A stretch of 64,000 bases of DNA from NCBI RefSeq assembly GCF_023008405.1, contig NZ_CP095376.1, forward strand, positions 6,180,501 to 6,244,500, given 5' to 3'. Below, one piece after another: positions 2,210 through 59,120 of this stretch (positions are counted from its first letter, which is position 1; every line of letters starts with the position of its first letter). A program made the translations under genes and the position numbers. Source of the DNA: Amycolatopsis sp. FBCC-B4732. Its GTDB lineage: Bacteria > Actinomycetota > Actinomycetes > Mycobacteriales > Pseudonocardiaceae. The notes under the pieces were generated by a model, which did not search any database, was not told where the DNA came from, and worked only from the letters and a program-made list of their open reading frames with translations.

Positions 2210-3775
2210 ATGCGTGGTGTTGACCTCGCGATCATCGTGGTCTACCTGGCGGCGATGCCGCTGATAGGCGTGCTCGTCGGCCGGAAGCAACGGTCGGCGG
2301 CCGACTACTTCGTCGGTGAGCGCAGCCTGCCGTGGGGTGCGGTGATGCTGTCCGTGGTGGCCACGGAGACCTCGACGCTGACCGTGATCAGCACGCCGGG
2401 CCTCGTCTTCGGCAACGCGTTCCTGTTCCTGCAGCTGGCCTTCGGCTACATCATCGGCCGGACGGTCGCCGCGTTCGTGCTGCTGCCGCGGTACTTCCGC
2501 GGCAACCTCGTGAGCGCGTACGCGTTCCTCGGGAAGCGGTTCGGCTCGGGGCTGCAGGGCACGGCGTCGGTGACGTTCGTGATCACCCGGCTGCTCGCCG
2601 AGGGCGTCCGCCTGTTCGCCGGCGCGATCCCGATCAAGGTCATCCTCGGGCACTACGACATCCATCTCGACTACTGGGTGATCGTCGTCATCCTGACCGC
2701 GCTGACGCTGATCTACGCCTACATCGGCGGGATCAAGGCGGTCGTCTGGGTCGACGTCATCCAGCTGACCCTCTACCTCGGCGGCGCCGCGGTGGCCGCG
2801 ATCGTGCTGCTAAACAAGCTGCCCGGCGACTGGATGACCCAGGCGTCCGACGACGGCAAGTTCATGCTCGTCGACTTCACGAAGAACCTGCTGACCAGCC
2901 CGTACGCGTTCATCACGGCGGTGCTCGGCGGCGCGGCGCTGTCGATGGCCTCGCACGGCGCGGACCAGCTGATCGCGCAGCGGCTGATGGCCACGCGCAG
3001 CCTGCGCGACGGCCAGAAGGCGCTGATCGGCAGCGGCATCATCGTCACCATCCAGTTCGCACTGTTCCTGCTGGTCGGGGCGATGCTGTGGGTGTTCAAC
3101 GGGCGCAAGTCGGTCGCGCAGCTCGGCCTGCAGAGCCCGGACGACGTGTTCTCGCGTTTCATCATCGACGACCTGCCGGCCGGCGTCTCGGGTCTGCTCA
3201 TCGCGGGCGTGCTCGCCTCGACCATGGGAGCGCTGGCTTCGGCGCTCAACGCGCTTTCGACGTCCACTGTGGCCGATCTCTACCAGCGGTTCACCAAGCG
3301 CGCGCCGGAAGATTCGAAGCTGCTCAAGCACGGTCGCATGTGGACACTCATCTGGGCGGTCGTGTTCGCGGTGTTCGCGTCGCTGTTCTCCACCACGAAG
3401 AACTCGGTCATCGAGCTGGGTCTCGCGATCACCGGGTACACCTACGGCGCGCTGCTCGGGTCGTTCCTGCTCGGCCTGCTGATCAAGAAGGCGCGGCAGG
3501 TGGACGCGATCATCGCGTTCGTCGCCACGGTCGTCGTGATGGCGTTCGTCATCCTCGGGGTGAAGTTCAGCGCGAAGACCGGTGGTCTGATCGGGATCGA
3601 CTTCTCGAAGGCGGCCGGGGATCGCGTGGCCTTGGCGTATCCGTGGTACACGCTGCTGGGCGTGGTGATCACACTGGTCGTGGGCGGGTTGCTGTCGCTG
3701 CGGCACCGGACGCCGGACCCGAAGGCGGCCGAAGCCGAGGCCGTGGGCGAGAGCGAAGAGGTCACCGCCGCCTGA
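2210..3775 (+). CDS. Sodium:solute symporter (SSS family)
   Basis: A 521-residue integral membrane transporter of the sodium/solute symporter family, with about 13-14 hydrophobic helices. The N-terminal helix starts directly after the start codon, followed by the family pattern RSAADYFVGERSLPW and ATETSTLTVIS near residues 30-60. A central GGIKAVVWVDVIQ segment and an ASTMGALASALNALST stretch match the sodium-binding region of the family. The ATG at 2210 has a GGAG ribosome site about 7 bases upstream. The C-terminus is a short acidic cytoplasmic tail. Substrate cannot be read from sequence. Adjacency to anmK makes anhydro-MurNAc, MurNAc or sialic-acid-like sugars plausible, which is inference. 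The pair is followed by a strong hairpin, so it looks like a two-gene transcription unit. Confidence 0.9.
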   Translation: MRGVDLAIIVVYLAAMPLIGVLVGRKQRSAADYFVGERSLPWGAVMLSVVATETSTLTVISTPGLVFGNAFLFLQLAFGYIIGRTVAAFVLLPRYFRGNLVSAYAFLGKRFGSGLQGTASVTFVITRLLAEGVRLFAGAIPIKVILGHYDIHLDYWVIVVILTALTLIYAYIGGIKAVVWVDVIQLTLYLGGAAVAAIVLLNKLPGDWMTQASDDGKFMLVDFTKNLLTSPYAFITAVLGGAALSMASHGADQLIAQRLMATRSLRDGQKALIGSGIIVTIQFALFLLVGAMLWVFNGRKSVAQLGLQSPDDVFSRFIIDDLPAGVSGLLIAGVLASTMGALASALNALSTSTVADLYQRFTKRAPEDSKLLKHGRMWTLIWAVVFAVFASLFSTTKNSVIELGLAITGYTYGALLGSFLLGLLIKKARQVDAIIAFVATVVVMAFVILGVKFSAKTGGLIGIDFSKAAGDRVALAYPWYTLLGVVITLVVGGLLSLRHRTPDPKAAEAEAVGESEEVTAA

Positions 3776-3792
3776 TCCTTCTGAACCGTTTC

Positions 3793-3828
3793 CGGCGGGC
3801 GCCCGTGTCGGTTTGCGGGAGCCCGCCG
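3793..3828 (+). terminator. Hairpin terminator after anmK-symporter pair
   Basis: An inverted repeat 18 bp after the symporter stop. The outer arms are GGCGGGC (3794-3800) and GCCCGCC (3821-3827), with inner arms CCCG and CGGG separated by one mismatch, giving an 11-bp GC stem around a 10-base loop. There is no T-tract, as is common in high-GC actinobacteria, so the terminator call is inference from structure and position. Confidence 0.55.
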
Positions 3829-3861
3829 AGAAGCGGCGGGAGGACTTCGAAGGTGGACTTC

Positions 3862-4362: not shown

Positions 4363-4375
4363 GGGGATGTGACCG

Positions 4376-4408
4376 CTCTCCCGCTCCCGTGACCTGGGAG
4401 CGGGAGAG
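4376..4408 (+). terminator. 13-bp hairpin between DUF3455 gene and small membrane protein gene
   Basis: Perfect inverted repeat CTCTCCCGCTCCC (4376-4388) and GGGAGCGGGAGAG (4396-4408) with a 7-base loop. It starts 14 bp after the DUF3455 stop and ends 10 bp before the next start codon. The right arm contains the purine-rich GGGAG run that would act as the ribosome site of the next gene, so it may both terminate and control translation. The dual role is inference. Confidence 0.6.
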
Positions 4409-4418
4409 GGGGTCTCAC

Positions 4419-4643
4419 ATGGGGTTCTTCATCGGTGTCGGCGTGGTCCTCGCCGTAGTCCTCGTGATCGCGCTGGCGCTCGACCGATCCGACCGCAAGC
4501 GAGGCGTCGAACGCGGCATGATGACGCCGCGCGGGCGCCGGCCGCGGATCGACGACGCCACCCACATCGGCAACGATCTCGGCACCTACGAGCCGCGCGC
4601 GCGGGGCGACGACCGCCGCGCGCCGCGCGAAGACGACATGTGA
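4419..4643 (+). CDS. Small single-pass membrane protein, unknown function
   Basis: A 74-residue protein beginning with one hydrophobic helix (about residues 2-21, rich in Val/Leu/Ile) followed by a strongly charged Arg/Asp-rich cytoplasmic tail. The start ATG at 4419 has a GGGAGAGGGGG purine run just upstream, part of which lies in the right arm of a 13-bp hairpin. It converges with smc, whose stop codon lies 5 bp away. I do not recognise the family. The tail has no motif beyond mixed charge. Confidence 0.6.
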   Translation: MGFFIGVGVVLAVVLVIALALDRSDRKRGVERGMMTPRGRRPRIDDATHIGNDLGTYEPRARGDDRRAPREDDM

Positions 4644-4647
4644 CGCG

Positions 4648-7600
4648 TCAGCCGACCGCGACCGGTTCGTCGTCGGCCGTGCGCAGGCGCTGCGAGATCA
4701 CCTTCGTGATGCCGTCGCCCTGCATGCTCACGCCGTAGAGCGCGTCGGCGATCTCCATCGTCGGCTTCTGGTGGGTGATGATGATCAGCTGGGACGAGTC
4801 GCGCAGCTGCTCCAGCAGGCCGATCAGGCGGCGCATGTTGGTGTCGTCGAGCGCCGCCTCGACCTCGTCCATCACGTAGAAGGGTGAGGGGCGGGCGCGG
4901 AAGATCGCGACCAGCATGCCCACCGCGACCAGCGACTTCTCGCCACCGGAGAGCAGCGACAGCCGCTTGACCTTCTTGCCCGGAGGGCGGGCTTCGACGT
5001 CGACGCCGGTGCTGAGCAGGTCGTCCGGCTGGGTGAGGACCATCCGGCCCTCGCCGCCGGGGAACAGCACGCTGAAGACTGTTTCGAACTCGCGGGCCAC
5101 GTCGGCGTACGCGCCGGCGAAGACCTCGAGGATCTTCTCGTCGACCTGCTTGATGACGGCTTCGAGGTCCTTGCGGGTGTCCTTGAGGTCTTCCAGCTGC
5201 GTGGAGAGGAACTTGTACCGCTCCTCCAGCGCCGCGAACTCCTCGAGCGCGAGCGGATTCACCTTGCCCAGCAACGACAGGTCCTTCTCGGCGCGCTTGG
5301 CGCGGCGGGCCTGGGTGTCGCGGTCGTAGGGCATCGGCGGCGGCGGGGTGACGTCCTCGCCGCGGTCCTTGGCCGCTTCGTACTCGGCCATCTCGCCCGC
5401 GCTCGGCGGGACCGGGACGTCCGGGCCGTACTCCTGCACCAGATCCGTGAGGCCGATGCCGAAGTCCTCGGCGATCTTCGCTTCCAGGGTCTCCAGGCGC
5501 AGCCGCTGCTCGGCGCGCAGGACCTCGTCGCGGTGCACGGCGTCGGTCAGCTTCTCCAGCTCGCCGGTCAGCTCGCGGACCTTGGCGCGGACGCCGGTCA
5601 GCGCCTGCTCGCGGGTCTGGCGGCGGGCCTGGACCTCGTCGCGTTCGGTGGCCGCGCGCTGGACGGAGTGCTCGATGCGGTCGAGGGCGATCTCGCCGCC
5701 GTTGACCACGGCGTTCGCGATCTCGGCGCCACGCTTGCGGGCGGCGGCGGCGCGCTCGGCGCGTTCGCGGGCCTGCTGCTCGGCGTGCGCGGCGCGGCGG
5801 AGCCCTTCGGCCTTGCCCGCGATGCTGCGCGCCCGCTCCTCGGCGGTGCGCTGCGCGAGCCGCGCTTCCATCTCCTGCTGCCGGACGACGGCCAGCTCCT
5901 CGACGGCGGCGTCGCGCTCGGCGGTGTCCGGGTCGTCCTCGACCGGCTGCTCGGCGACGGCGGCGAGGCGTTCCTCCAGCTCGGCGAGCTGGGCCAGCGC
6001 CTGGACGCGGCTCTGCTCGACCTTCGCGCGCTGCCCGGAGAACCGCTCGACCTCGGCCTGCGCCTGGCGGGCGGCCTGCTGCATCCGGTTGAGCCGCTCC
6101 GACGAGCGCGCCTTACGGACCTTGGCCTCGCCGAGCGCGTCCTTGGCCTGCGAGACCTCTTCGCGGCGCGCCTGCTGCTCGGCGCGGGCGCCTTCCAGCT
6201 CGGCCGCGTAGCGCTCCAGCGAGCGCTCGGCCAGGCGGAGCCGCTCGGCCGCTTCGTCGACGGCGGCCTGGACCTCGATCACGCTCTCGCGCTTGCCGGA
6301 GCCGCCGATCGCCCAGCGGGCGCCGAAGACGTCGCCCTCGGCGGTGACCGCGCGGACCTCCGGGTGCACCGCGACCAGGTGCCGGGCCGCGTCGAGGTCG
6401 CGGACCAGCGCCAGCTTCTCGAGGGCCTGCTCGACGGCGGGCCGCAGCTGCGCGGGCGCCGTGACGACCTCACGCGCCCAGCGCGCGCCTTCCGGCAGCG
6501 ACGGCCACGAGTAGGTGTCCACAGTGGACTCCGGACCGCCGAGCAGGATACCCGCGCGGCCGGAATCGGTGTCCTTCAAGTACTTCAGCGCGCGCAGGGC
6601 GTCTTCGCCGCCGGTGACGGCGACCGCGTCGGCCACCGGGCCGAGCGCCGCGGCCAGCGCGACCTCGTACCCGGGCTCGACGGTGAGCAGCGCGGCGACC
6701 GAGCCGAGCAGGCCCGGCAGCTCGTGGGACGCGCCGAGCAGCGCGCCCGCGCCGTCCTTGCGCCGCAGGCCCATCGACAGCGCCTCGACGCGCGCCTTCT
6801 CCGACGCGATCTCGCGCTCGGCCGCGCGTTCGGCCTTCACCAGCTCTTCGACGCGCGCCTTGGCCGCGTTGTTGGCTTCGACCGCGCGGTCGTGGCGGTC
6901 CATCAGGCCGGCGTCGTCGGACTCCTCGACGCCGCCCTCGGCCTTGGCCATCTCGAGTTCTTCGACGGCGATCTCGGCGCGCTCGGCGGCCTCTTCGAGG
7001 GACACGCTGAGCCGGTCGATCTCGTCGGAGGTGGCGCCGTTCTTGCTGCGCAGCGCCTCGACCTGGCCGGTCAGCTTGGCCATGCCCTCGCGGCGGTCGG
7101 CGATGGCGCGGACCGCCGCCCAGTGCGCGCGCTCGGCGGCCTGGACGCGCTGTTCGAGGTCTTCGCGGCGCAGCACGGTCTCGGCGAGCAGCTCCCGGGC
7201 CTCCATGACGGCCTCGTTGAGCTCCTCTTCCTGCTCGGCGACCCGCTCGGCCTCTTCGAGGAGCTCTTCGGGGTCGCGGCCGCCGGTCGACGTCGTGACG
7301 TCGGCGGAGAGGTGCCGCTGCCGCTCGATCGCGAGGCGGACGGTGCCGCGCAGGCGCTCGGCCAGCGCGGACAGCTTGTACCAAGTCTCCTGCGCGGTCT
7401 GCAGGAGCGGCGCGTCCTCGGCGAGCGACGACTCCAGCTCGGCTTCCTCGGCGGAGACGAGCTCCAGGTGCTGCTCGACCTCCCCGCGGCGCTGGCGGGC
7501 GGTCTTCTCGTCGGCTTCTTCGCGCGCGATCGCGTCCCGCTGGGTGACCAGGTCGTCGGCGAGCAGGCGCAGGCGGGAGTCGCGCAGCTCGGACTGGACG

Positions 7601-13281: not shown

Positions 13282-15806
13282 CGCACCCCCTCTTCCTGGA
13301 ACTCGACGCTGAACGCGGGCAGCGAAACCACGATGGTGAGCCCGCCGCCCGGGGTGTCCTCGGCGCGGATCGTGCCGCCCATCGCCTCGGTGAAGCCCTT
13401 CGCCACCGACAGCCCGAGCCCGACGCCCGGGGTCGTGTCGCGGTCGCCGCCCAGGCGCTGGAACGGGGCGAACGCCGAGTCCGCCGCGCCCTTGCGCAGG
13501 CCCTTGCCGTGGTCGACGATCCGCAGCTCGACGTGCCCGGAGTGCGCGGAAGCCCGCGCGGACACCGGCGAACCCCCGTGCCGCAGGGCGTTGTCCAGCA
13601 CGTTCGCCACCACGCGCTCCAGCAGGCCGGGGTCGGCGAGCACCACCGGGAGCTGGTCGTCGACGGCCACTCGCACCGCGCCGGAGTTGTCCACGGTGGA
13701 CAACGCGTGCGCGACGACCTCGTCGTACCCCACCGGACGCAGGTGCGGCTTCACCGCGCCGGTGGCCAGCCGCGAGGAGTCGAGCAGGTTGTCGATCAGG
13801 CCCGCGAGCCGGTCGGCGGACAGCTCGATGGCCTCCATCAGCTCCGCGGTGTCCTCTTCGGACAGCCGGAGGTCGGGCGCGCGCAGGCTGCCGATGGACG
13901 CCTTGATCGACGTCAGCGGCGTGCGCAGGTCGTGCCCGACGGCCGACAGCAACGTCGTGCGCAGCTCGGTCGCCTCCGCTTTGCGCTCCGCCGCCGCGGC
14001 CGCGGCCGCCGTCCGCTGCTGGCGCAACGCGAGCAGCGCCTGCCCGGCCACGGCTTCCAGCACGCGCCGGTCGGCCGCCGGCAGCGCCCGCCCGCGCAGG
14101 GTCAGGTGGACGTCGGCGGTGACGGCGATGTCGACGTCGGCCTCGTCCGGGTCCGCGCACGGCCGTTCCCCGGCGGCCGCCACGCCCTGCCACGCGCCTT
14201 CCTGCTTCTCCAGCAGCGTCACCGACGTCAGCCCGAAGTTCTCGCGGACCTTCTCCAGCAACCGCTCGATCGGGTTCGCGTGGGTCAGCACGGTCCGCGC
14301 GTAGGAGGCCAGCAGCGCCGCCTCCGTCCGCGCCCGCGCCGCCTGCGTGGCCCGGCGCGCGGCCTGATCGACGACCAGCGCGACGAGCACCGCGACCACG
14401 ACCATCGCGATCAGCGTCACGAGGTTCTGCGGCGTGTGGACGGTGAGCGTGTACAGCGGCGGGGTGAAGAAGAAGTTGAGCAGCCCGGCGCCGAGCACGG
14501 CCGCGACCAGCGCCGGGCCGAGCCCGCCGACGAGCGCCACGACGACCGTGGCCAGCACGTAGGAGATGACGTCGGTGGCGAAGTCGAGGCCGGCCGGGAT
14601 GAAGAACCCGACCACGGTGACCAGCACCGGCAGCACGACGCTGAGCACCCAGCCCGCGACCAGCCGCGAGAACCCCAGCGGGCTCGCGCCCAGCCGCGTC
14701 CGCAGCCGCCCGCCCGCCTCGGAGTGGGTGACCATGTGCACGTCGATCGACCCGGACTGCCGCACGACCCCGGCGCCGATGCCCTCGTCGAACAACCCCG
14801 CCACGCGAGAACGCCGCGAGGTCCCGATCACCAGCTGGGTCGCGTTGACGCCGCGGGCGAAGTCCAGCAGCGCGGCCGGGACGTCGTCGCCGACGACGGT
14901 GTGGAAGGTCGCGCCCACCTCCTCGGCCAGCGTGCGGCAGCGGGCCATCGCGGTCGGGCCGATGCCGGACAGGCCGTCGCCGCGCAGGATGTGCAGCACC
15001 TGCAGCTCGGCGCCGGCCCGGGTGGCGATCCGGCTGGCGCGGCGGATCAGCGTCTCGCTCTCCGGCCCGCCGGTGATCGAGACGACGACGCGTTCGCGCG
15101 TCTCCCAGGTGTCGGTGATGCTCTGCTCGGCGCGGTAGCGCTGCAGGGCGACGTCGACCTGGTCGGCGACCCAGAGCAGGGCCAGCTCGCGCAACGCGGT
15201 CAGGTTGCCCGGGCGGAAGTAGTTGCCGAGCGCGGCGTCGATCCGCTCGGCCGGGTAGACGTTGCCGTGCGCGAGCCGCCGCCGCAGCGCCTCGGGCGTG
15301 ATGTCGACCAGCTCGAGCTGCTCGGCGCGGCGGACGACCTCGTCCGGCACGGTCTCCTGCTGCGTGACGCCGGTGATCCGCTCGACGACGTCGTTGAGGC
15401 TCTGCAGGTGCTGCACGTTGACCGTGGACAGCACGTCGATGCCCGCTTCGAGGAGCTCCTCGACGTCCTGCCAGCGCTTGGCGTTGCGCGAGCCCGGCAC
15501 GTTGGTGTGCGCGAGCTCGTCCACGACGGCGACCTCGGGCGCGCGGGCGAGGATCGCGTCGACGTCCATCTCGTCGAACTCGCGGCCGCGGTGACCGGCG
15601 GGCCGCCGCGGCACGAGCTCCAGGCCGTCCAGCAGCACCGCGGTCTTCTCCCGGCCGTGCGTCTCCACCAGCCCGACGACGACGTCGGTGCCGCGGTCCA
15701 GGCGCCGGCGCGCTTCGCCGAGCATGGCGAACGTCTTGCCGACGCCCGGAGCCGCGCCGAGGTAGATCCTCAGCTCCCCCCGGCGCGGCTTGTTCACGGT
15801 GGTCAC
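13278..15806 (-). CDS. kdpD: Potassium/turgor sensor histidine kinase KdpD
   Basis: An 842-residue sensor kinase. The N-terminal KdpD domain begins within ten residues and carries the Walker-type GAAPGVGKT motif near residue 15 and ALGNYFRPGNLTALREL. It is followed by a universal-stress-like domain (about residues 230-370), four closely spaced transmembrane helices (DUF4118 region, about 390-490), a GAF-like region, and a kinase core with phospho-accepting His in SAVGHDLRTPLTS, an N-box and a GVGLGLSVAKG G-box. The GTG at 15806 is chosen because it lies 4 bp after the kdpC stop and directly before the conserved domain. Order and overlaps show co-transcription with kdpFABC. Confidence 0.96.
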   Translation of the reverse strand: MTTVNKPRRGELRIYLGAAPGVGKTFAMLGEARRRLDRGTDVVVGLVETHGREKTAVLLDGLELVPRRPAGHRGREFDEMDVDAILARAPEVAVVDELAHTNVPGSRNAKRWQDVEELLEAGIDVLSTVNVQHLQSLNDVVERITGVTQQETVPDEVVRRAEQLELVDITPEALRRRLAHGNVYPAERIDAALGNYFRPGNLTALRELALLWVADQVDVALQRYRAEQSITDTWETRERVVVSITGGPESETLIRRASRIATRAGAELQVLHILRGDGLSGIGPTAMARCRTLAEEVGATFHTVVGDDVPAALLDFARGVNATQLVIGTSRRSRVAGLFDEGIGAGVVRQSGSIDVHMVTHSEAGGRLRTRLGASPLGFSRLVAGWVLSVVLPVLVTVVGFFIPAGLDFATDVISYVLATVVVALVGGLGPALVAAVLGAGLLNFFFTPPLYTLTVHTPQNLVTLIAMVVVAVLVALVVDQAARRATQAARARTEAALLASYARTVLTHANPIERLLEKVRENFGLTSVTLLEKQEGAWQGVAAAGERPCADPDEADVDIAVTADVHLTLRGRALPAADRRVLEAVAGQALLALRQQRTAAAAAAAERKAEATELRTTLLSAVGHDLRTPLTSIKASIGSLRAPDLRLSEEDTAELMEAIELSADRLAGLIDNLLDSSRLATGAVKPHLRPVGYDEVVAHALSTVDNSGAVRVAVDDQLPVVLADPGLLERVVANVLDNALRHGGSPVSARASAHSGHVELRIVDHGKGLRKGAADSAFAPFQRLGGDRDTTPGVGLGLSVAKGFTEAMGGTIRAEDTPGGGLTIVVSLPAFSVEFQEEGVR

Positions 15807-24323: not shown

Positions 24324-25339
24324 CGTGGTGCTCCTCCTGTCGCAGAAAACCCGGCGGTGGTCGCGCGGACCACCAGGGAGGGGTGCAGCAGGTGCCGGAC
24401 CGGCTCCGTGCGCTCCCCGCGGACGCGCTCGATCAGCGCCGCGAACGCCAGCCGCGCCATGTCCGTGCGCGACTGGTCCACCGTGGTCAGTGAGAGGTGG
24501 CGCAGCGCGGCCAGCGACGTGTTGTCGTAGCCGACGACCGACACGTCCCCCGGTACGCGCAGCCCGGCCTCTTCGAGGGCCGAGATCGCGCCCACGGCGT
24601 TGAAGTCGTTGCCGGCGACCAGCCCCGTCGGCAGGTCGGCGCGCGAGTACGTGGCGAGCAGCTCGCGCACGGCGGTTTCGCCACCGATGTCGGTGTGCTC
24701 GCTGCGCACGACGATCGGCTCCAGTCCGTGCGCCCGCATGGCCGACTCGAAGCCGCGCCGCCGCTGCGCCGCCCCGGCCGCGCCGCCGCCGTCGAGGTGC
24801 GCGATGCGCCGGTGCCCGAGGCCGGCCAGGTGGCCGACCGCCAGCGCGGAGCCCGCCTCGCCGTCGTCGTTCACCGTGTCCACTGTGGACGCGCGGATCG
24901 TCCGCGAGACCAGCACGACCGGGCACTGCTTGGCCGCGATCCGGATCGACGCCGCCGGCACGACCGGCGAAAGCAGGATGATCCCCGCCGGGCGGAAGGA
25001 AAGCAGGTTGTGCAGGGCGTTCCACTCGCGTGTGGGACTGCGGCCGCCCGTGTTGAGGATCAGGTCGAAGCCCGCCGCCTGCGCGGCCCGGTCCAGTTCC
25101 TCGACGATGTCGGCGAAGAACGCATTGCGCAGGTCGTTGACCATCACGCCGAGCACCGTCGACGTGCGGCTGGCCAGCGACCGCGCCATCACGTGCGGCT
25201 GGTAGCCGAGTTCTTCGGCGGCGCGCAGGACCGCGGCGCGCCGGGCGTCGGACACCTTCGGCGAATTCCGCATCACCAGGGAGACCAGTGCGCGCGAAAC
25301 GCCCGCCCTGGCGGCGACGTCCTCCATCGTCGGACGCAC
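24320..25339 (-). CDS. LacI-family transcriptional regulator of the iol locus
   Basis: A 339-residue repressor. The N-terminal helix-turn-helix TMEDVAARAGVSRALVSLVM and hinge helix (HVMARSLASRTSTVLGV) are followed by a periplasmic-binding-protein-like effector domain ending in VVRATT. The GTG at 25339 has a GGGGAGG site five bases upstream; an earlier GTG at 25345 overlaps that site and an ATG at 25327 is also possible. It is transcribed divergently from iolE. Two GAGCGCTC-centred palindromes in the shared gap are the likely operators, and autoregulation is likely since the gap is only about 110 bp. Confidence 0.9.
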   Translation of the reverse strand: MRPTMEDVAARAGVSRALVSLVMRNSPKVSDARRAAVLRAAEELGYQPHVMARSLASRTSTVLGVMVNDLRNAFFADIVEELDRAAQAAGFDLILNTGGRSPTREWNALHNLLSFRPAGIILLSPVVPAASIRIAAKQCPVVLVSRTIRASTVDTVNDDGEAGSALAVGHLAGLGHRRIAHLDGGGAAGAAQRRRGFESAMRAHGLEPIVVRSEHTDIGGETAVRELLATYSRADLPTGLVAGNDFNAVGAISALEEAGLRVPGDVSVVGYDNTSLAALRHLSLTTVDQSRTDMARLAFAALIERVRGERTEPVRHLLHPSLVVRATTAGFSATGGAPR

Positions 25340-28395: not shown

Positions 28396-29174
28396 GCCCG
28401 CTGCTCGAAGTCCGCGACATCGGGAAGACCTACGGCAGCGTGATCGCGCTGCGCGAAGTGTCCACTGTGGTCAACGCGGGCGAGGTCACCTGCGTGCTCG
28501 GCGACAACGGCGCCGGGAAGTCCACGCTGATCAAGATCCTGTCCGGCGTGCACCAGCACGACCGGGGCGAGTTCTTCGTGGAGGGCGAACCCGTGCGGTT
28601 CGCTTCGCCGCGCGAGGCGCTGGACCACGGCATCGCGACCGTGTACCAGGACCTCGCGGTGGTGCCGCTGATGAGCGTCTGGCGGAACTTCTTCCTCGGC
28701 TCGGAGCCGACGACCGGCTTCGGCCCGTTCCGGTTCCTGGACCGGAAGAAGGGCCGCGAGACGACGAAGAAGGCGTTGTCCGACATGGGCATCGACCTGC
28801 GGGACGTCGAGCAGCCGGTCGGGACGCTCTCGGGCGGCGAACGCCAGTGCGTGGCGATCGCGCGGGCGGTGTACTTCGGCGCGAAGGTGCTGATCCTCGA
28901 CGAGCCGACCGCCGCGCTCGGCGTCAAGCAGGCCGGGGTGGTGCTGAAGTACGTCGCCCAGGCCCGTGACCGCGGGCTCGGCGTCGTGCTGATCACGCAC
29001 AACCCGCACCACGCCTTCCCGGTGGCGGACCGGTTCCTGCTCCTCAAGCGCGGCGCTCCGCTCGGCGCGTACGAGAAGAAGGACATCGACATCAACGAGC
29101 TGACCCGGCAGATGGCGGGCGGTGCGGAACTGGAAGCCCTCGAACACGAACTGCGGCAGGTGGAGAAGGCGTGA
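28392..29174 (+). CDS. ABC transporter ATP-binding protein (sugar/cyclitol)
   Basis: A 260-residue ATPase. Walker [10 protein letters not shown] near residue 37, Q-loop VYQDLAVV, signature [10 protein letters not shown] near 142 and Walker [13 protein letters not shown] are complete. It has a single nucleotide-binding domain, unlike the two-domain RbsA/XylG type, so it must work as a homodimer. It overlaps both the permease and the iolC-like kinase by four bases. One Ser-Thr-Val-encoding GTCCACTGTGG element lies at 28460-28470. Confidence 0.93.
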
Positions 29175-30987: not shown

Positions 30988-31874
30988 GCAAGCTCCACCG
31001 TCCACTCGGGACACTGTCCGACGACACCGACCCGGTCCGGCTCACCCCGGACAGCGCGGGCTGGACCTACACCGGGCTGCGGGTGCTGTCCCTGGCGCCG
31101 GGCGAGACGCGGATCCTGCACACCGGCGAGTTCGAGGCGTTCGTGCTGCCCCTGGCCGGTTCCGCCACGGTCCGCGTCGACGGGCAGGTCTTCGAGCTAC
31201 GCGGCCGCGAGTCCGTCTTCACCCGCGTGACGGACTTCGCCTACGTGCCCCGCGACGCCGAAGTCGAGTTGTCGACAACGGACGGTCTGGAGGTCGCGCT
31301 CCCGATGGCGCGCTGCACCCGCCGCCTCGCCGCGAAGTACGGCCCGGCCGAGGACGTCCCGGTCGAGGTCCGTGGCGCCGGGCAGGCGACGCGGCAGGTG
31401 ACCAACTTCGGGGTGCCCGGGGTCTGGGACCACGCCGACAAGCTCAACGCGTGCGAGCTGATCACCCCGGGCGGGAACTGGTCGTCGTACCCGCCGCACA
31501 AGCACGACGAGGCGACCGAGTGCGAGGTCGTCAACGAGGAGATCTACTACTTCCGGATCGCCGGCCGCGACGGCGTGACGCCGTCCCGTGAGGGCTTCGG
31601 CCTGCACCGCACGTACACCGCCGACGGCGACCTGGACGAAGACGTAGCCGTGCGCGACCACGACGTGTTCCTGATCCCGCGCGGCTACCACGGCCCGTGC
31701 GTGGCCGCGCCGGGTTACCCGATGTACTACCTGAACGTCCTGGCCGGGCCGGCCGAAGAGCGGTCCATGGCGTTCTGCGACGACCCCGCGCACAGCTGGG
31801 TCCGCGGCACGTGGGCGTCGCAGGACCTCGACCCGCGGTGCCCCGTCACGAGTCACGAAGGACGTGTTCAGTGA
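30984..31874 (+). CDS. iolB: 5-Deoxy-glucuronate isomerase
   Basis: A 296-residue double cupin enzyme converting 5-deoxy-glucuronate to 5-dehydro-2-deoxygluconate. The metal-binding SSYPPHKHDE motif lies near residue 170, followed by EIYYFRI and RGYHGP, the usual IolB signature elements, and MYYLNVLAGP near the C-terminus. Start and stop overlap the neighbouring genes by four bases on each side. Confidence 0.95.
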   Translation: MSKLHRPLGTLSDDTDPVRLTPDSAGWTYTGLRVLSLAPGETRILHTGEFEAFVLPLAGSATVRVDGQVFELRGRESVFTRVTDFAYVPRDAEVELSTTDGLEVALPMARCTRRLAAKYGPAEDVPVEVRGAGQATRQVTNFGVPGVWDHADKLNACELITPGGNWSSYPPHKHDEATECEVVNEEIYYFRIAGRDGVTPSREGFGLHRTYTADGDLDEDVAVRDHDVFLIPRGYHGPCVAAPGYPMYYLNVLAGPAEERSMAFCDDPAHSWVRGTWASQDLDPRCPVTSHEGRVQ

Positions 31875-33706
31875 AGCTGACGACGGCTCAGGCGCTGGTC
31901 CGCTGGATCCTGGCGCAGCGCTCCGAAACCCTGGACGGGCGCGAAGTCCCGCTCTTCCCCGGCGTCTTCGCGATCTTCGGGCACGGGAACGTCCTCGGCC
32001 TCGGGACGGCCCTGGAAGAACACCGCGGCGAGCTGCCCGTCTGGCGCGGGCACACCGAGCAGGGCATGGCGCTGGCCGCGGTCGGGCTGGCGAAGGCCAC
32101 GCACCGGCGGCAGGTCGGCGTCGCGACGTCGTCGATCGGGCCGGGCGCGCTGAACATGGTCACCGCGGCCGGGGTCGCGCACGCGAACCGGCTGCCGGTG
32201 CTGCTGCTGCCGGGCGACACGTTCACCAGCCGCGCGCCGGACCCGGTGCTGCAGCAGATCGAGCCGTTCGGCGACGCGACCGCGACGGTGAACGACGCCT
32301 TCCGCGCGGTCTCGCGCTACTTCGACCGGATCAGCAGGCCCGAGCAGCTGATCTCGACGTTGCCGCAGGTCGCGCGGGTGCTCACGGACCCGGCGGACAG
32401 CGGGCCGGTGGTGCTGGCGCTGCCGCAGGACGTCCAGGCGGAGACGTACGACTTCCCGGACGCGCTGTTCGCCCCGGTGACCCACCGGCCGTTGCGCCCG
32501 CGCCCGGACCGCCGTTCGGTCACCGAGGCGGCAGGCGTCCTGCGGGCTTCCCAGCGGCCGCTGCTGGTGCTGGGTGGCGGGGTCCGGTACTCGGGTGCGG
32601 CGCGCCGGGCCCTCGACTTCGCCGAGCGGCACGGGATCCCGGTCGTGGAGACCACGGCGGGCCGGACGCTGGTGCCGCACGCGCACCCCCTGCACGCGGG
32701 GCCGCTGGGCGTCACGGGCTCGTCGTCGGCGAACGTCCTGGCGGCCGGGGCGGACGTGGTCCTGGCCGTCGGCACGCGGCTGCAGGACTTCACGACGGCG
32801 TCGTGGACGGTGTTCTCCCCCGACGTCCGGCTGGTGTCGCTGAACGCGGCCCGCTTCGACGCCGTCAAGCACGGCGCCCTGTCCGTGACCGGGGACGCCG
32901 ACGCGGGCCTGACGGACCTCGCCGCCCAGCTGGAGAGCTGGCGGGTGGACCCGGCGTGGACGTCACGGGCTTCGGCGGAACGCGCTTCCTGGGACGCGCA
33001 CATCGATTCGTTGCGGTCGGCCGCGGCGGAAGTCCCGTCCTACGCGCAGGTCGTCGGGGTGGTGAACGACCTCTCGGCCGGCGGCGACTACGTCATGACG
33101 GCGTCCGGCGGGCTGCCGGGCGAGCTGATCGGCGGCTGGCGAGGGTCCGGTTCGGTGTCGATGGACGTCGAGTACGGGTTCTCGTGCATGGGGTACGAGC
33201 TGTCCGGCGCGTGGGGTGCGGCGATCGCGTGGCCCGGCCTGGTGACGACGCTCCTGGGCGACGGCTCGTACCTGATGCTGAACTCGGAACTGTTCTCGGC
33301 GGCGTTCGCGGGGCACCCGTTCGTCGCGGTCGTCTGCGACAACGACGGCTACGCGGTGATCGCGCGGCTCCAGGAGGGGCAGGGCGGGAAGCCGTTCAAC
33401 AACTTCTACGCCGACTGCACGACTTCGCACGCTTCCCCACCCCGGGTGGACTTCGCGCGGCACGCGGAGTCGCTGGGGTGCCTGGTCTTCACGGCGTCCA
33501 CAGTGGACTCGCTGCGGACGGCTTACGCGTCGGCCCGGGAGGCGTCGGTGGCCGGACGGCGGCCGGCGGTCGTCGTGGTGAAGACGCAGCCGTCGACGTG
33601 GACCGAAGCCGGAGCCTGGTGGGAGGTCGGCGTGCCCGAGCACCTCGCGGGCCGGGACGAGTACGAGCGGAGCAAGTCAGGACAGCTGCGCTACCTGCGT
33701 CCGTAG
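31871..33706 (+). CDS. iolD: 3D-(3,5/4)-trihydroxycyclohexane-1,2-dione acylhydrolase
   Basis: A 611-residue thiamine-diphosphate enzyme that opens the inositol-derived ring. The PYR domain has the catalytic Glu in WRGHTEQGMALAAVGLAKA. The middle domain holds LLVLGGGVRYSGAA. The PP domain carries the cofactor motif GDGSYLMLNSELFSAAF with the conserved GDG...N spacing. The GTG at 31871 overlaps the iolB stop. The last 30 bases overlap, on the opposite strand, the 3' end of the P450 gene. A perfect GTCCACAGTGGAC (33496-33508) encodes Ser-Thr-Val-Asp. The operon lacks iolA, which must be elsewhere. Confidence 0.95.
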   Translation: MKLTTAQALVRWILAQRSETLDGREVPLFPGVFAIFGHGNVLGLGTALEEHRGELPVWRGHTEQGMALAAVGLAKATHRRQVGVATSSIGPGALNMVTAAGVAHANRLPVLLLPGDTFTSRAPDPVLQQIEPFGDATATVNDAFRAVSRYFDRISRPEQLISTLPQVARVLTDPADSGPVVLALPQDVQAETYDFPDALFAPVTHRPLRPRPDRRSVTEAAGVLRASQRPLLVLGGGVRYSGAARRALDFAERHGIPVVETTAGRTLVPHAHPLHAGPLGVTGSSSANVLAAGADVVLAVGTRLQDFTTASWTVFSPDVRLVSLNAARFDAVKHGALSVTGDADAGLTDLAAQLESWRVDPAWTSRASAERASWDAHIDSLRSAAAEVPSYAQVVGVVNDLSAGGDYVMTASGGLPGELIGGWRGSGSVSMDVEYGFSCMGYELSGAWGAAIAWPGLVTTLLGDGSYLMLNSELFSAAFAGHPFVAVVCDNDGYAVIARLQEGQGGKPFNNFYADCTTSHASPPRVDFARHAESLGCLVFTASTVDSLRTAYASAREASVAGRRPAVVVVKTQPSTWTEAGAWWEVGVPEHLAGRDEYERSKSGQLRYLRP

Positions 33707-43730: not shown

Positions 43731-44585
43731 TCAGGCCCCGGCCGCCGCCGCGATGGCCCGGCCCGTCAGCACCTTCGCCAGGTGGCGGCGGTATTCGACG
43801 TCGGCGTTGCCGTCGACCGGCGGATTCGTGCCCTCGGCCGCGTGCGACGCCGCCGCGCGGATCGAATCCGCCGCGGCCTGGACGCCGACCAGCGCCGCTT
43901 CGACGCCCGAAGCGCGTACCGGTGTGGAGCCCATGTTCGTCAGCGCGACCCTGGCTTCCTCGATGATGCCCGCCTCGGTGCGGACGGTGACCGCGACCGC
44001 GACCATCGACCACGCCTGGGCGACCCGGTTGAACTTCTCGTAGTGCGCCCGCCACCCGGTGTGCTTGGGCACGCGGACCTCGACGAGCAGCTCGTCCGGG
44101 GCCAGCGCCGTGGTGAACAGGTCCTGGAAGAACTCCGCGGCCGGCACCGTCCGGCGCCCCGAGGGCCCGGCCACCACCAGCGACGCTTCCAGCGCGAGCA
44201 CCGGCGCCAGCAGGTCGCCCGCCGGGTCGGCGTGGGCGATCGCGCCGCCGAGCGTGCCGCGGTGGCGGATCTGCGGGTCGGCGACCGTGTCGGTCGCCGC
44301 TTTGAGCAGCGCCGCGTGCTCGGCGACCAGCGGGTCGTGCTGGACGTCGTAGTGCGTGGTCATCGCGCCGATCACCAGCGCGTCGCCGTCCTCGCGCACG
44401 CCGCGCAGCTCCGGGACGCGCCCGAGGTCGATCAGCGTCGTCGGCGCGGCGAGCCGCATCCGCAGCACCGGGAGCAGGCTCTGCCCGCCCGCCAGCACCT
44501 TGGCGTCCTCGCCCGCCGACGCCAGCGCCTGCACCGCTTCGTCCACTGTGGACGGTCGGACGTACTCGAAGGGAGCCGGGATCAC
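43731..44585 (-). CDS. coxM: Xanthine/CO dehydrogenase-type FAD-binding subunit
   Basis: A 284-residue medium subunit. The N-terminal FAD-binding domain has LAGGQSLLPVLRMRL near residue 32 and TVADPQIRHRGTLGGAIAHADPAGD near 97, both diagnostic for the CoxM/CutM family. The C-terminal domain is the CO dehydrogenase flavoprotein type. The GTG at 44585 overlaps the coxL stop by four bases. A perfect GTCCACTGTGGAC (44541-44553) encodes Ser-Thr-Val-Asp. Confidence 0.93.
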   Translation of the reverse strand: MIPAPFEYVRPSTVDEAVQALASAGEDAKVLAGGQSLLPVLRMRLAAPTTLIDLGRVPELRGVREDGDALVIGAMTTHYDVQHDPLVAEHAALLKAATDTVADPQIRHRGTLGGAIAHADPAGDLLAPVLALEASLVVAGPSGRRTVPAAEFFQDLFTTALAPDELLVEVRVPKHTGWRAHYEKFNRVAQAWSMVAVAVTVRTEAGIIEEARVALTNMGSTPVRASGVEAALVGVQAAADSIRAAASHAAEGTNPPVDGNADVEYRRHLAKVLTGRAIAAAAGA

Positions 44586-50321: not shown

Positions 50322-50360
50322 AAACGCCCGCCCGGTCCATTGTGGACCGGGCGGGCGTTT
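50322..50360 (-). terminator. 18-bp perfect terminator after GT-C gene
   Basis: Arms AAACGCCCGCCCGGTCCA (50322-50339) and TGGACCGGGCGGGCGTTT (50343-50360) pair without mismatch around a 3-base loop, 13 bp past the glycosyltransferase stop. On the minus strand it is followed by T residues. A strong intrinsic terminator. Confidence 0.93.
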
Positions 50361-54612: not shown

Positions 54613-55435
54613 GGGCTCGGCCCGGGGCTCCGATCGCCAGGTCCGCTTCGATCGCGCGGGCCGTCTCCAGGAGTGGGGGGACCAGGTTCTCGCGGACCGA
54701 CTCCGCCGTCGTGCGGCTGGCGTGCGTGGACAGGTTGACCGCCGCCACTGTGCGGCCCTTGCGGTCGTGGATCGGGGCCGCCACCGAGCGGAGGCCCTCC
54801 TCCAGTTCCTGGTCGACCATTGCCCAGCCCTGGTCGGCCACCGCCGCCAGTTCCGCGCGCAGGGGGTCCGGGGCCGTCACCGTGTGGTCGGTGAGGCGGT
54901 CCAGGCTCGCCACCAGGAAGTACGCCTCCAGCTCCGCCTTGCTGAGGCCGGCCAGCAGGACGTGGCCCATCGAGGTCGCGTACGCCGGGAAGCGGGTGCC
55001 CACGTTGATGCTGACCGTCATGATCCGGGAGATCGCCACCCGCGCGACGTAGACGATGTCCGTTCCTTCGAGGACCGAGACCGAGCTCGACTCGTGGACC
55101 GTCGCGGACAGCTTCTCCAGGTGCGGCTGGGCCACCTCGGGCAACGTCATGCTCGACAGGTACGCGTAGCCCAGCTCCAGCACGCGCGCGGTCAGGGAGA
55201 AGTACTTGCCGTCGGTGCGGACGTAGCCGAGGTCGGTCAACGTCAGCAGGAACCGGCGGGCCGCCGCGCGGGTCAAGCCGGTCGCGCGGGCGACGTCGCT
55301 CAGGGTCAGCTCCGCCGCTCCCGCGTGGAAGGCCTTGATCACGGCCAGGCCGCGCTCCAGCGACTGCACGTGGTGGGCACCACGGTGCGCCGGCTCGCTG
55401 TCCAGCTCGACGTCGATCGGCCTCCCCGCGTCCAT
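54605..55435 (-). CDS. IclR-family regulator of the pca operon
   Basis: A 276-residue regulator. The N-terminal winged helix (QSLERGLAVIKAFHAGAAELTLSDVARATGLTRAAARRFLLTL) is followed by an effector-binding IclR domain (RFPAYATSMGHVLLAGL, DHTVT, SVAAPIHDRKGRTVAAVNLS). It resembles PcaR/PcaU/PobR activators that respond to beta-ketoadipate or protocatechuate. ATG at 55435 is used; GTG at 55444, next to the pcaC stop, would add three residues. A GTTC/GAAC repeat upstream of pcaI is a candidate target. Confidence 0.9.
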   Translation of the reverse strand: MDAGRPIDVELDSEPAHRGAHHVQSLERGLAVIKAFHAGAAELTLSDVARATGLTRAAARRFLLTLTDLGYVRTDGKYFSLTARVLELGYAYLSSMTLPEVAQPHLEKLSATVHESSSVSVLEGTDIVYVARVAISRIMTVSINVGTRFPAYATSMGHVLLAGLSKAELEAYFLVASLDRLTDHTVTAPDPLRAELAAVADQGWAMVDQELEEGLRSVAAPIHDRKGRTVAAVNLSTHASRTTAESVRENLVPPLLETARAIEADLAIGAPGRAHG

Positions 55436-57192: not shown

Positions 57193-57926
57193 TCGTCCTC
57201 GTCCTCTTCCTCTTCGAACACCGACGCGTCGCGCCCGCGCAGCACGATGTCGAACTGGAACCCGAGCGCCCATTCGGATTGGGTGATCTCGTGGTCGTAG
57301 CGCGAGACCATCCGCTGACGGGCCTTTTCGTCCGGGATCGAGTTGAAGATCGGGTCCTGGGAGAACAGCGGGTCGTCCGGGAAGTACATCTGGGTGACCA
57401 GCCGCTGGGTGAACGCCGAGCCGAACACCGAGAAGTGGATGTGCGCGGGGCGCCAGGCGTTGTCGTGGTTCTTCCACGGGTAGGCGCCGGGCTTGATGGT
57501 GGTGAAGGTGTAGCGGCCGTCGTTGTCGGTCAGTGCGCGCCCGACGCCGTCGAAGTTCGGGTCGAGCGGCGACGGCCAGCGGTCGCCGGTGTGCCGGTAG
57601 CGGCCGCCGGCGTTCGCCTGCCAGATCTCGACGAGGGAGTCGCGCACCGGGCGGCCGTCGCCGTCGAGGAGCCGGCCGGTGACGATGATCCGCTGGCCCT
57701 GCGGCTCGCCCGCGTGCTGGCGGGTCAGGTCGTTGTCGAGCTCGCCGAGCCGGCCCGGGCCGAGCAGCGGGCCGGTGACCTCGGTCAGCATCTGCGGGAG
57801 AAGCACCAGGTCCTGCTTGGGGTGCCGCAGGGCCGTGGAGCGGTAGCCGGTGGAATTCAGCGGGGGGTGCGTGCCTTCGGGGTCCTGCCCGTAGCGCGGC
57901 AGCCTGAGTTCGGTCGGAGTGGCCAC
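57189..57926 (-). CDS. pcaH: Protocatechuate 3,4-dioxygenase beta subunit
   Basis: The 245-residue catalytic iron-binding subunit that cleaves protocatechuate to beta-carboxy-cis,cis-muconate. The iron ligands are visible in GAYPWKNHDNAWRPAHIHF: Tyr plus the two His of HIH, with the second Tyr in GGRYRHTGDRW. The C-terminus is a short acidic tail. The GTG at 57926 has AAAGGAG upstream. The next enzyme, PcaB, is not encoded in this operon. Confidence 0.96.
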   Translation of the reverse strand: MATPTELRLPRYGQDPEGTHPPLNSTGYRSTALRHPKQDLVLLPQMLTEVTGPLLGPGRLGELDNDLTRQHAGEPQGQRIIVTGRLLDGDGRPVRDSLVEIWQANAGGRYRHTGDRWPSPLDPNFDGVGRALTDNDGRYTFTTIKPGAYPWKNHDNAWRPAHIHFSVFGSAFTQRLVTQMYFPDDPLFSQDPIFNSIPDEKARQRMVSRYDHEITQSEWALGFQFDIVLRGRDASVFEEEEDEDE

Positions 57927-57938
57927 GTCTGTTCTCCT

Positions 57939-59120
57939 TTACCGGCCTTCGAGGACGACGGCCAGGCCCTGGCCGACGCCGATGCAGATGGCGGCCAGGC
58001 CCCAGCCCCCGCCGCGGCGGTGCAGGTCGTGGGCCAGGGTGCCGAGGATCCGGCCGCCCGACGCGCCGAGCGGGTGCCCGATGGCGATCGCGCCGCCGTG
58101 GGTGTTGACGATCTCCGGGTCGAGGTCCTTCCAGTCGCGCAGGCAGGCGAGCGACTGCGCGGCGAAGGCCTCGTTGAGCTCGACCGCGGCCAGGTCGTCC
58201 CAGCCGATGCCGGCGCGCTCGAGGGCGATCTCGGCCGCGCGCACCGGGCCGATGCCGAAGACGTCCGGGTCGACGCCGGCCGCGCCCCGGCCGGCGATGC
58301 GGGCGAGCGGGGCCCTGTTCAGCCGGCCGGCGGCGGCTTCGTCGCCGAGCAGGAGGGCCGAGGCGCCGTCGTTGAGCGGGGAGGCGTTGCCCGCCGTGAC
58401 GGTGCCGTTTTCCTTGCGGAACACGGGCTTCAGCTTGGCGAGCTTCTCGGGGCCGGAGTCCGGCCGGATGCCTTCGTCGCGGGCCAGGTCGACGCCCTCG
58501 ACCGGGACGACGAGGTCGTCGTAGAAGCCTTCGTCCCAGGCCTTGGCGGCGTTGACGTGGCTGCGCGCGGCGAAGGCGTCCTGCTCGTCGCGGCCGATGC
58601 CGTAGCGCTCGGCGAGCTGTTCGGTGGACTCGCCGAGGGAGACCGTCCACTGCGACGGCATCGCCGGGTTGACCATCCGCCAGCCGAGCGCGGTGTTGTA
58701 GAGGGTCTGGTTGCCGGCGGGGAACGCCTTTTCGGGCTTCGGCATGACCAGCGGCGAGCGGGTCATCGACTCGACGCCGCCGGCGACGACGAGGGAGGCG
58801 TCGCCGACCTGGATCGCCCGGCTCGCCTGGATCGCCGCGTCGAGGCCGGAGCCGCAGAGGCGGTTGACGGTGCTGCCCGGGACGGTCGTCGGCCAGCCGG
58901 CCAGCAGCGTGGCCATGCGGGCGACGTTGCGGTTGTCCTCGCCCGCGCCGTTCGCGTCGCCGAGGGTGACTTCGTCCACTGTGGACGGATCGAGGCCGGT
59001 GCGGGCCTGGAGAGCTTTGAGGACCCCGGCGGCGAGGTCGTCCGGGCGGACGCCGGCCAGCGCCCCGCCGTAGCGGCCGAACGGGGTGCGGATCGCGTCG
59101 AGGATGTAGACGTCGGTCAT
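57939..59120 (-). CDS. pcaF: Beta-ketoadipyl-CoA thiolase
   Basis: A 393-residue thiolase that splits beta-ketoadipyl-CoA into acetyl-CoA and succinyl-CoA. The nucleophile Cys is in NRLCGSGLDA near residue 90, with NEAFAAQ, GGAIAIGHPLGASG and the second Cys in AICIGVGQG. The ATG at 59120 overlaps the pcaJ stop by four bases. A perfect GTCCACTGTGGAC (58974-58986) encodes Ser-Thr-Val-Asp. Thiolases for fatty acids are similar; context favours PcaF. Confidence 0.93.
   Translation of the reverse strand: MTDVYILDAIRTPFGRYGGALAGVRPDDLAAGVLKALQARTGLDPSTVDEVTLGDANGAGEDNRNVARMATLLAGWPTTVPGSTVNRLCGSGLDAAIQASRAIQVGDASLVVAGGVESMTRSPLVMPKPEKAFPAGNQTLYNTALGWRMVNPAMPSQWTVSLGESTEQLAERYGIGRDEQDAFAARSHVNAAKAWDEGFYDDLVVPVEGVDLARDEGIRPDSGPEKLAKLKPVFRKENGTVTAGNASPLNDGASALLLGDEAAAGRLNRAPLARIAGRGAAGVDPDVFGIGPVRAAEIALERAGIGWDDLAAVELNEAFAAQSLACLRDWKDLDPEIVNTHGGAIAIGHPLGASGGRILGTLAHDLHRRGGGWGLAAICIGVGQGLAVVLEGR

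Follow-up and report, generated by a model that had tools for sequence, protein, structure and literature searches.

The sites of matS/MatP, Noc and SlmA are palindromes that lie scattered in genes, are read by one protein and are regional on the chromosome. The palindrome HIP1 of cyanobacteria is over-represented and lineage-dependent, with its outer bases the most variable, as described in the cited part of PMC4390886. In Streptomyces, the GATC-binding nucleoid-associated protein (NAP) Gbn occupies GATCWT at over 2,800 regions (PMC9239103, in part). The PadR-family regulator AphA of V. cholerae gave 49 ChIP peaks, which are set in relation to the start codons of genes, and its inverted repeat is ATGCAA-N4-TTGCAT (PMC6855506, in part). 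Here we analyse a 13-bp palindrome first noticed in a 64-kb stretch of an Amycolatopsis chromosome (the window), where the original prediction had read it as a mark of selection acting at the level of DNA, and had named an architectural protein site, a methylation target and a chromosome motif as examples. As with HIP1, the palindrome is strongly over-represented genome-wide, genes included; as with PadR autoregulators, an inverted repeat stands in the promoter of the candidate reader's own gene; and a placement tied to origin or terminus, as for the sites of Noc, SlmA and MatP, was not found, apart from one richer zone on one side.

The palindrome is enriched in coding sequence

All five 13-bp copies and both 11-bp copies (at 3262 and 28460) that had been claimed for the window are present. 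They are listed here with two further sites, and without strand unless one is given:

3262..3274: one-mismatch site GTCCACTGTGGCC in a sodium:solute symporter gene
6517..6529: perfect site GTCCACAGTGGAC in the hinge-coding region of smc; palindrome with the Ser-Thr-Val-Asp frame on the minus strand
13689..13701: G-centred copy GTCCACGGTGGAC in a kdpD-like gene, missed by the original prediction
24878..24890: perfect site GTCCACTGTGGAC in a LacI-family gene
28460..28472: one-mismatch site GTCCACTGTGGTC in an ABC-transporter ATPase gene
33496..33508: perfect site GTCCACAGTGGAC in a TPP-enzyme gene (Pfam; originally called iolD)
44541..44553: perfect site GTCCACTGTGGAC in a CO-dehydrogenase flavoprotein (coxM-like) gene
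50335..50347: one-mismatch site GTCCATTGTGGAC, absent from the original list
58974..58986: perfect site GTCCACTGTGGAC in a thiolase (pcaF-like) gene

In the seven cases for which it had been stated, the host frame does read TCC-ACA/ACT-GTG, that of site 33496 within ORF 31697-33706. The CACWGTG core recurs at 54746 and at 40089, the latter in a Ser-Thr-Val frame judged from coordinates only. The window contains six matches where dinucleotide shuffles yield 0.02 (the earlier estimate was far less than one copy per 64 kb by chance), and it is richer than the chromosome average (six copies versus about 1.7 expected from 266 in 10.19 Mb).

Over the whole 10.19-Mb chromosome, GTCCACNGTGGAC occurs 266 times, 246 of them with an A/T centre; copies are chiefly intragenic, in genes unrelated to one another. 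Coding sequences were compared with codon-shuffled counterparts. In 2.20 Mb of CDS, drawn from 2.86 Mb sampled out of the genome, the A/T-centred form was observed 69 times against 0.17 under the null, and a smaller set of 357 kb gave 19 palindromes against 0.03. The G/C-centred form stayed close to background in the 2.20-Mb set, and the copy at 13689 is doubtful as a site because its G-centred kind is near background genome-wide. In the codon-shuffle test, which tried half-sites of 5 and 6 bp with a set of spacers, the palindrome ranks top. Its one-off variants are unevenly spread, positions 3 and 4 (CC) being nearly invariant (8 and 2 variants) and positions 1 and 6 tolerant (46 and 35), a profile that resembles that of a protein binding site. 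Sampled sites of the Amycolatopsis genome showed no clear signal in the flanks outside the 13 bp; sampled 11-bp sites had no preference for gene starts, and closely spaced tandem pairs sampled from this genome revealed no clear operator. Identity with a DnaA box was rejected, GTCCACA having no adjoining TT flank.

In the 357-kb set, ACA and ACT make up 253 of the 7,324 Thr codons that are not in Ser-Thr-Val and 5 of 36 in Ser-Thr-Val without a following Asp, versus 17 of 21 in Ser-Thr-Val-Asp, so that these codons are not equally common at other Thr. In a separate count the tetrapeptide itself is in excess (83 observed, 12.6 expected), and the motif encodes 62 of the 83. Ser-Thr-Val-Asp, proposed as the form in which the palindrome is hidden, is indeed the commonest frame (75 of 128 sampled 11-bp sites) and is not the rule: the other two frames hold 16 and 13 sites, and 24 lie outside crude ORF calls, at least one of which (44541 in the window) is truly intragenic. 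The centre base shows no clear bias with respect to the coding strand (T 59, A 45, p 0.20) or the leading strand, and an origin as an RNA hairpin or strand effect was rejected on these grounds.

Conservation was followed in an alignment for one site, that in smc. It is kept in 19 of 30 genomes of the genus, our own included; its Thr column is the most extreme of 408 fourfold columns, and the rare ACT codon is conserved. At this single site the palindrome and its variants are related by substitutions without indels, and an origin by insertion was rejected. At least one copy studied, that in smc, is held by selection on DNA. The excess over codon-shuffled sequence and the use of three frames, together with the lack of a clear strand bias, the kept ACT codon and the mismatch profile, support the original reading that selection acts on the DNA itself.

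Position along the chromosome

Site density shows no gradient with distance from the parB/origin region (Spearman 0.05, p 0.58); it is about 4 per 100 kb overall and 3.5-4.5 per 100 kb across all six origin-distance bins. The suggestion of an origin- or terminus-related chromosome motif finds no support in the distance test, though one zone by the presumed terminus (about 3.1 Mb) is richer. Between 2.25 and 3.0 Mb there are 35 perfect sites versus 19.6 expected (p 0.001), and between 2.0 and 3.0 Mb the density is 6.5 versus 3.7 per 100 kb (p 0.02) when two stretches chosen for their clusters are left out. Since there is no gradient with origin distance, the zone is one-sided, and it includes clusters within very long genes. 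A chromosome motif like those read by Noc, SlmA or MatP would account for this zone and for palindromes scattered within genes; against the flat profile, the one-sidedness and the clusters in long genes, we consider it highly improbable.

The search for an extra ParB paralogue points the same way. Each of 26 genome entries, motif-rich and motif-poor (two of them, G217 and G342, seem to be one genome), has one strong HTH_ParB match, and weak second matches in six entries again fall in motif-rich as well as motif-poor genomes. This evenness means that no Noc-type ParB paralogue tracks the motif, and a ParB paralogue was rejected as the reader, its number being uncorrelated with the palindrome.

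A link between the palindrome and PadR promoters

Copy number differs strongly among lineages. Tens to hundreds of copies are found in 28 of 54 genomes of the sampled family; the same holds for Virgisporangium and for families f5, f9 and f12. A match to this PadR (E<=1e-27) is present in each of the 34 genomes that reach 20 copies, and no genome lacking one at E<=1e-20 exceeds 8 copies; orthology was assigned here by best hit instead of by tree, and scoring covered at most 11 first-look candidates per genome. Of the 137 genomes with PadR at E<=1e-20, 103 stay below 20 copies, among them every one sampled from f15 and genus g26; PadR is necessary at most, and not sufficient.

In G101 the only two copies, 33 bp apart, lie in the promoter of a PadR-family gene, between it and a DUF1707 gene, and in G201 the sole copy sits 18 bp before the PadR match; among the matches listed, these are the two of 17 PadR genomes with 1-3 copies in which a copy adjoins PadR. 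The G101 protein has PadR (PF03551) and Vir_act_alpha_C (PF10400) domains above cut-off. The Amycolatopsis gene is not part of the window:

G000:C1:6931432-6931923, minus strand: Amycolatopsis padR

Its match spans query residues 15-178 without stops, with 77 winged-helix residues read; SVTRSQVYREL is identical between the two PadRs compared, and the closest solved relatives are AphA (1yg2) and a PadR-family protein (5x11). Upstream of it are one perfect, one one-mismatch and one three-mismatch copy.

Twelve PadR upstream stretches were compared: six contain a copy that is perfect or has a single mismatch, two the TTCC variant and two only sites with at least two mismatches, while G336 has none and G209 a single edge-cut site. 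Virgisporangium (331 copies) and G056 (114 copies) carry only sites with at least two mismatches in the 201 bp before PadR. Where PadR matches most closely (E<=1e-44, 19 genomes), one of the two exact patterns is directly upstream in 11 genomes, and in 8 neither is. A tandem pattern occurs once each in 20 of 90 family genomes and adjoins PadR in all six whose PadR coordinates are known; G060, G154 and G161 among these six had played no part in deriving the pattern. Three of four Amycolatopsis checked do not match it exactly. Nine genomes, of which eight are new cases, have the variant TTCCAYWRTGGAA directly before PadR. Overall it occurs in 61 of 298 genomes (its reversed control in 19). In 52 of these 61, among the matches listed, no copy lies beside PadR, and no genome-wide expansion of the variant was found, the maximum being 3 copies in any of the 298.

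These promoters bear on three other explanations. If the palindrome were an iterated element of the HIP1 kind, created and maintained through a DNA methyltransferase with its linked repair, PadR promoters would merely use or resemble it. Its palindromic form, lineage-variable number, intragenic placement and variable outer bases would fit (compare PMC4390886, in part); methylation does not predict, however, a marked PadR promoter in two genomes without other copies, nor a variant marking PadR in nine. With a density that is also low for HIP (about 4 per 100 kb), we find this account improbable. Molecular drive, by which the palindrome would, in the manner of uptake sequences, promote its own spread through recombination, conjugal transfer or the uptake of DNA, agrees with the wide placement without gradient, the large lineage differences and the toll on protein sequence (Ser-Thr-Val-Asp 83 times versus 12.6 expected, 62 of the 83 motif-coded); it leaves the PadR promoter sites unexplained, and the mismatch profile fits a protein site and not mutation. 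We judge molecular drive unlikely. Lastly, scattered copies could be nearly neutral decoys that titrate a PadR repressor and set its response threshold, which suits numerous sites identical to the promoter site and without preference for gene starts. To this we give a small chance: the smc copy, the one site followed, persists in 19 of 30 genomes, which is hardly expected of one site among hundreds.

A candidate PadR operator and its known counterparts

Of the options first offered, a protein site has the strongest support, and the candidate reader is a PadR-family protein. That GTCCACWGTGGAC is a PadR operator, in many genomes spread as the sites of a sparse chromosome binder or of gene control, we regard as probable. 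It would be the high-affinity site of a PadR-family winged-helix dimer, and in several clades of the order PadR would regulate its own promoter by way of one or several copies. In expanded genomes, PadR dimers on scattered sites would most likely form a sparse, sequence-specific, NAP-like chromosome binder, or control the genes at these sites. The evidence strongly suggests that PadR binds the palindrome; a chromosome-wide role for the putative sites is plausible, and the function of scattered occupancy is a matter of conjecture. More tentatively, and with less than even confidence, we propose that a local autoregulatory PadR became a chromosome-wide binder several times independently in one order, selection writing its operator into hundreds of genes and changing codons and amino acids (Ser-Thr-Val-Asp).

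Some genomes have the palindrome once or twice, at a promoter, and others have a genome-wide set of it, and it is this double form that allows a candidate reader to be named and directly tested. If true, the proposal would give a route from transcription factor to global chromosome binder, and a measure of how strongly binder sites constrain actinomycete protein-coding sequence. Open-access literature searches returned no account of GTCCACAGTGGAC or of an overrepresented palindromic motif in Amycolatopsis, only papers unrelated by their listings for other written forms of the motif, no relevant Amycolatopsis methylome or overrepresented actinobacterial palindrome, and nothing linking the PadR family, Amycolatopsis and a palindrome; for PadR, ChIP-seq and intragenic sites, only the AphA study (PMC6855506) was relevant among the matches listed.

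Of the known systems compared, PadR-family autoregulators (PadR, V. cholerae AphA) share with this case the PadR and Vir_act_alpha_C domains and an inverted-repeat site preceding the own gene. Known members are described at few promoters, whereas the Amycolatopsis palindrome has hundreds of copies, mostly intragenic and without preference for gene starts. Unlike matS/MatP, Noc and SlmA sites, it has no origin-distance gradient save one richer zone. With HIP1, as far as the cited part of its description goes, it shares over-representation, lineage differences and variable outer bases; it differs in its 13 bp, its odd A/T centre and a candidate transcription factor in place of methyltransferases. 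HIP1 is also the denser of the two, and we know of no established transcription-factor reader for iterated palindromes of its kind. Gbn, from what the cited part of its study describes, resembles the candidate PadR as an actinobacterial sequence-specific protein with sites chromosome-wide, but comes from a different protein family; the Amycolatopsis case would join a 13-bp palindrome to a PadR protein.

Abundance and anatomy of the palindrome

The window covers C1:6180501-6244500 of our strain's genome (G000). The chromosome (10,190,959 bases, a single contig) contains 266 copies of GTCCACNGTGGAC and none of its reversed control, and the centre is A or T in 246 of the copies (120 + 126). All copies named in the original prediction are present in the window, and its view that they are far more frequent than chance holds: in 20 sampled stretches plus the window (464 kb, of which 357 kb are ORF calls), 19 A/T-centred 13-mers were observed in the ORF calls against 0.03 in codon-shuffled genes. 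The arms placed at any other spacing, from 0 to 11, gave zero occurrences in these 464 kb. A larger sample of 2.86 Mb, with ORF calls over 2.20 Mb, yielded 69 A/T-centred 13-mers where codon-shuffled genes yielded 0.17, 104 copies of the 11-bp core TCCACWGTGGA where they yielded 0.58, and 10 G/C-centred 13-mers where they yielded 5.75. No other palindrome with halves of 5 bp (spacers 0-7) or of 6 bp (spacers 0 and 1) reaches the z scores of this family (29-31). The rarity of ACA and ACT outside this context is likewise borne out, these codons making up 253 of 7,324 Thr codons elsewhere versus 17 of 21 in Ser-Thr-Val-Asp. The tetrapeptide itself occurs 6.6 times above its residue-frequency expectation (13 other tetrapeptides, 0.48 to 1.84), and the motif encodes 62 of its 83 occurrences.

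The signal is confined to 13 positions, with flanks lacking a clear signal. One-mismatch variants with an A/T centre number 46, 24, 8, 2, 23 and 35 at positions 1 to 6; a protein contact would account for the sparing of C:G at positions 3 and 4, and neutral decay would not. ORF calls cover 104 of the 128 sampled 11-bp sites (75, 16 and 13 in the three frames). The calling is crude (coding fraction 0.77), and at least one of the other 24 sites is truly intragenic. These 128 sites show no pile-up at gene starts. At the centre, neither base is preferred on the leading strand (67 T, 62 A), nor is there a clear preference on the coding strand (59 T, 45 A).

Other repeats were noticed in the same genome sample. 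CGACGnCGTCG is in excess (397 versus 171 in codon shuffles) and GCGCGCGCGC is strongly avoided (2 versus 69). A second palindrome, CACTTTCACGTGAAAGTG, absent from the window, has 25 copies in 2.86 Mb, often paired 33 or 39-41 bp apart and in some cases near the ends of called ORFs (examples in stretches L052, at C1:130094 and 130135, L099, L112, L139, L141-L143 and L169). Its core is that of parS, with different outer bases. GTTTCACGTGAAAC was not found in the sampled stretches. Around C1:3366845-3366910 (L095), tandem one-mismatch sites adjoin an extended palindrome, CGCGAATGAGTCATTCGCG, and stretch L136 has one more copy of a related form, CGCGAATGA[GC]TCATTCGCG.

Chromosomal distribution and the smc copy

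Distance from the origin, raised in the original prediction, shows no trend in site density: with the origin placed at parB (8.176 Mb, in agreement with GC skew), each of the six distance bins has between 3.5 and 4.5 sites per 100 kb. The number of sites in each of 138 stretches resembles a Poisson distribution (mean 0.80, variance 0.73). Within the first 3.0 Mb, where every perfect site was listed, 0-2.25 Mb holds 56 against 58.7 expected from the genome mean, and 2.25-3.0 Mb is a richer zone, with 35 against 19.6 (p 0.001). Sampled stretches, leaving out L006 and L007, give 6.5 per 100 kb in 2.0-3.0 Mb versus 3.7 elsewhere (p 0.02). The zone is one-sided relative to the presumed terminus and contains clusters in very long genes. 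Both omitted stretches lie inside it, L006 (C1:2488001-2508000) with 6 copies of GTCCACNGTGGAC and L007 (C1:2905001-2925000) with 5, and by eye their very long genes resemble NRPS/PKS.

The smc copy, the one site whose conservation was followed to this depth, falls where the gene encodes the hinge (Pfam SMC_hinge 512-625); the gene product is 97% identical to Amycolatopsis bullii SMC, a match by which we assign the strain to that genus. In 19 of the 30 genomes compared within the genus, our own among them, the exact 11-mer occupies identical codon positions, while synonymous positions and residues around it vary; the smc locus of Kibdelosporangium banguiense also has an 11-mer in the corresponding position. 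We compared 408 fourfold columns whose residue is retained by 18 or more genomes, and none is richer in A/T endings than the Thr column of the site, with 23 of 24 where the mean is 4.6%.

Expansion across lineages and a candidate PadR regulator

Between 84 and 293 A/T-centred copies occur in 33 of 35 congeners, the others being G011 (6) and G013 (26); both possess the PadR gene described below, which makes them useful for tracing the driver of expansion. A search of 298 genomes from the order found 20 or more copies in 34 (11 of the genus, 17 other family members and 6 in families f5, f9 and f12), 3 to 19 in 15 and 0 to 2 in the remaining 249; within the family the fraction with at least 20 is 28 of 54. 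In a phylum set of 396 genomes, none except our own exceeds 2.

Copies in the named-genome set (45 searched)
Amycolatopsis bullii: 124
A. saalfeldensis: 154
A. arida: 13
Prauserella: 36
Saccharothrix: 61
Kibdelosporangium: 27
Saccharomonospora: 18
Actinokineospora: 44 and 87
Pseudonocardiaceae MAG: 45
Virgisporangium aurantiacum: 331
Pseudonocardia: 1 and 0
Remaining named genomes: 0

In one genome, G101, the sole two copies lie 33 bp apart between divergent genes for a PadR-family protein and a DUF1707 protein. A perfect palindrome at 6932023 likewise stands about 100 bp upstream of our strain's best match to this regulator, and the winged-helix segment SVTRSQVYREL is identical in the Amycolatopsis and G101 proteins.

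PadR genes
L251:2967-3506, minus strand: PadR-family regulator of G101
C1:6931432-6931923: best match in our strain (38% identity, 104 bits; next paralogue 56 bits)

Promoter sites in the 201 bp upstream of PadR (12 cases)
Own genome and G003: perfect site, with AGCCACAATGGAC (three mismatches) and GACCACTGTGGAC (one mismatch), 22 bp apart
G141 and G321: pair similar to that of our strain
G059: perfect site
G039, second PadR copy: one-mismatch site
Nocardia-like G337 and G039, first PadR copy: TTCCACTATGGAA and TTCCATAGTGGAA
Virgisporangium and G056: at least two mismatches in every site
G336: no site
G209: GGCCATTGTGGA, cut by the stretch end

A tandem pattern built from G000 (our strain), G141 and G321 has exactly one copy in each of 20 of 90 family genomes and none in 70; it stands directly upstream of PadR in all six carriers with known PadR coordinates, namely the three pattern makers and G060, G154 and G161. 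The exact pattern is absent from 3 of the 4 Amycolatopsis searched. A second pattern, TTCCAYWRTGGAA, derived from two promoters and searched over 298 genomes, lies within about 70 bp before a listed PadR match in nine genomes, each holding one or two copies: G039 (two copies), G055, G086, G189, G243, G263, G283, G316 and G320. G039 contributed to the pattern, so eight of the nine are independent of its making. G201 has a single GTCCACAGTGGAC, at C93:528-540, in front of PadR (C93:558-1058). Of 17 PadR genomes whose one to three copies of the 13-mer have listed places, just G101 and G201 have a copy adjoining PadR, and among the closest PadRs (E ≤ 1e-44) neither exact pattern is directly upstream in 8 of 19 genomes. 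Genome G094 has two TTCCAYWRTGGAA copies 32 bp apart (C34:29173-29217), away from its best PadR match (C66), which perhaps mark another controlled promoter.

With up to 11 first-look candidates scored in each genome, 137 of the 298 have a PadR match at E ≤ 1e-20, after nine weak ones are taken from the 146 at 1e-15. Every one of the 34 genomes with 20 or more copies belongs to these 137; among the 161 without a match the top two counts are 8, in G048 (an 82% complete MAG), and 3, in G041. Since every expanded genome has PadR but 103 of the 137 PadR genomes have fewer than 20 copies, PadR seems to be required for expansion, yet does not by itself lead to it, with genomes being non-independent by descent.

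A probably PadR-read palindrome among known systems

Recurrent promoter sites in several clades, the co-occurrence and the site profile together make it quite probable that a PadR dimer binds GTCCACWGTGGAC; if it binds this sequence at all, it would bind the scattered copies too. That such binding is joined to chromosome-wide occupancy or local control is, as a combined statement, somewhat less secure, though we favour it. A repeated conversion of PadR into a chromosome-wide binder is a more tentative proposal. A NAP-like or intragenic regulatory role of PadR would suit both the broad scatter of the sites and the retention of the smc copy. Titration of PadR by the scattered copies and spread of the palindrome by drive each appear improbable to us.

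A system of the Noc, SlmA or MatP type is ruled against by the tests made (ParB paralogue, origin distance), with the richer zone as a reservation. The case resembles that of a highly iterated palindrome, here with a PadR-type protein as its probable reader; HIP1 of cyanobacteria is linked to a methyltransferase in the abstract of PMC4390886. For AphA, a PadR-family relative, an excerpt of PMC6855506 gives 49 ChIP peaks, and Gbn, in the portion of PMC9239103 that concerns it, illustrates that actinomycetes do possess sequence-specific proteins with chromosome-wide sites.
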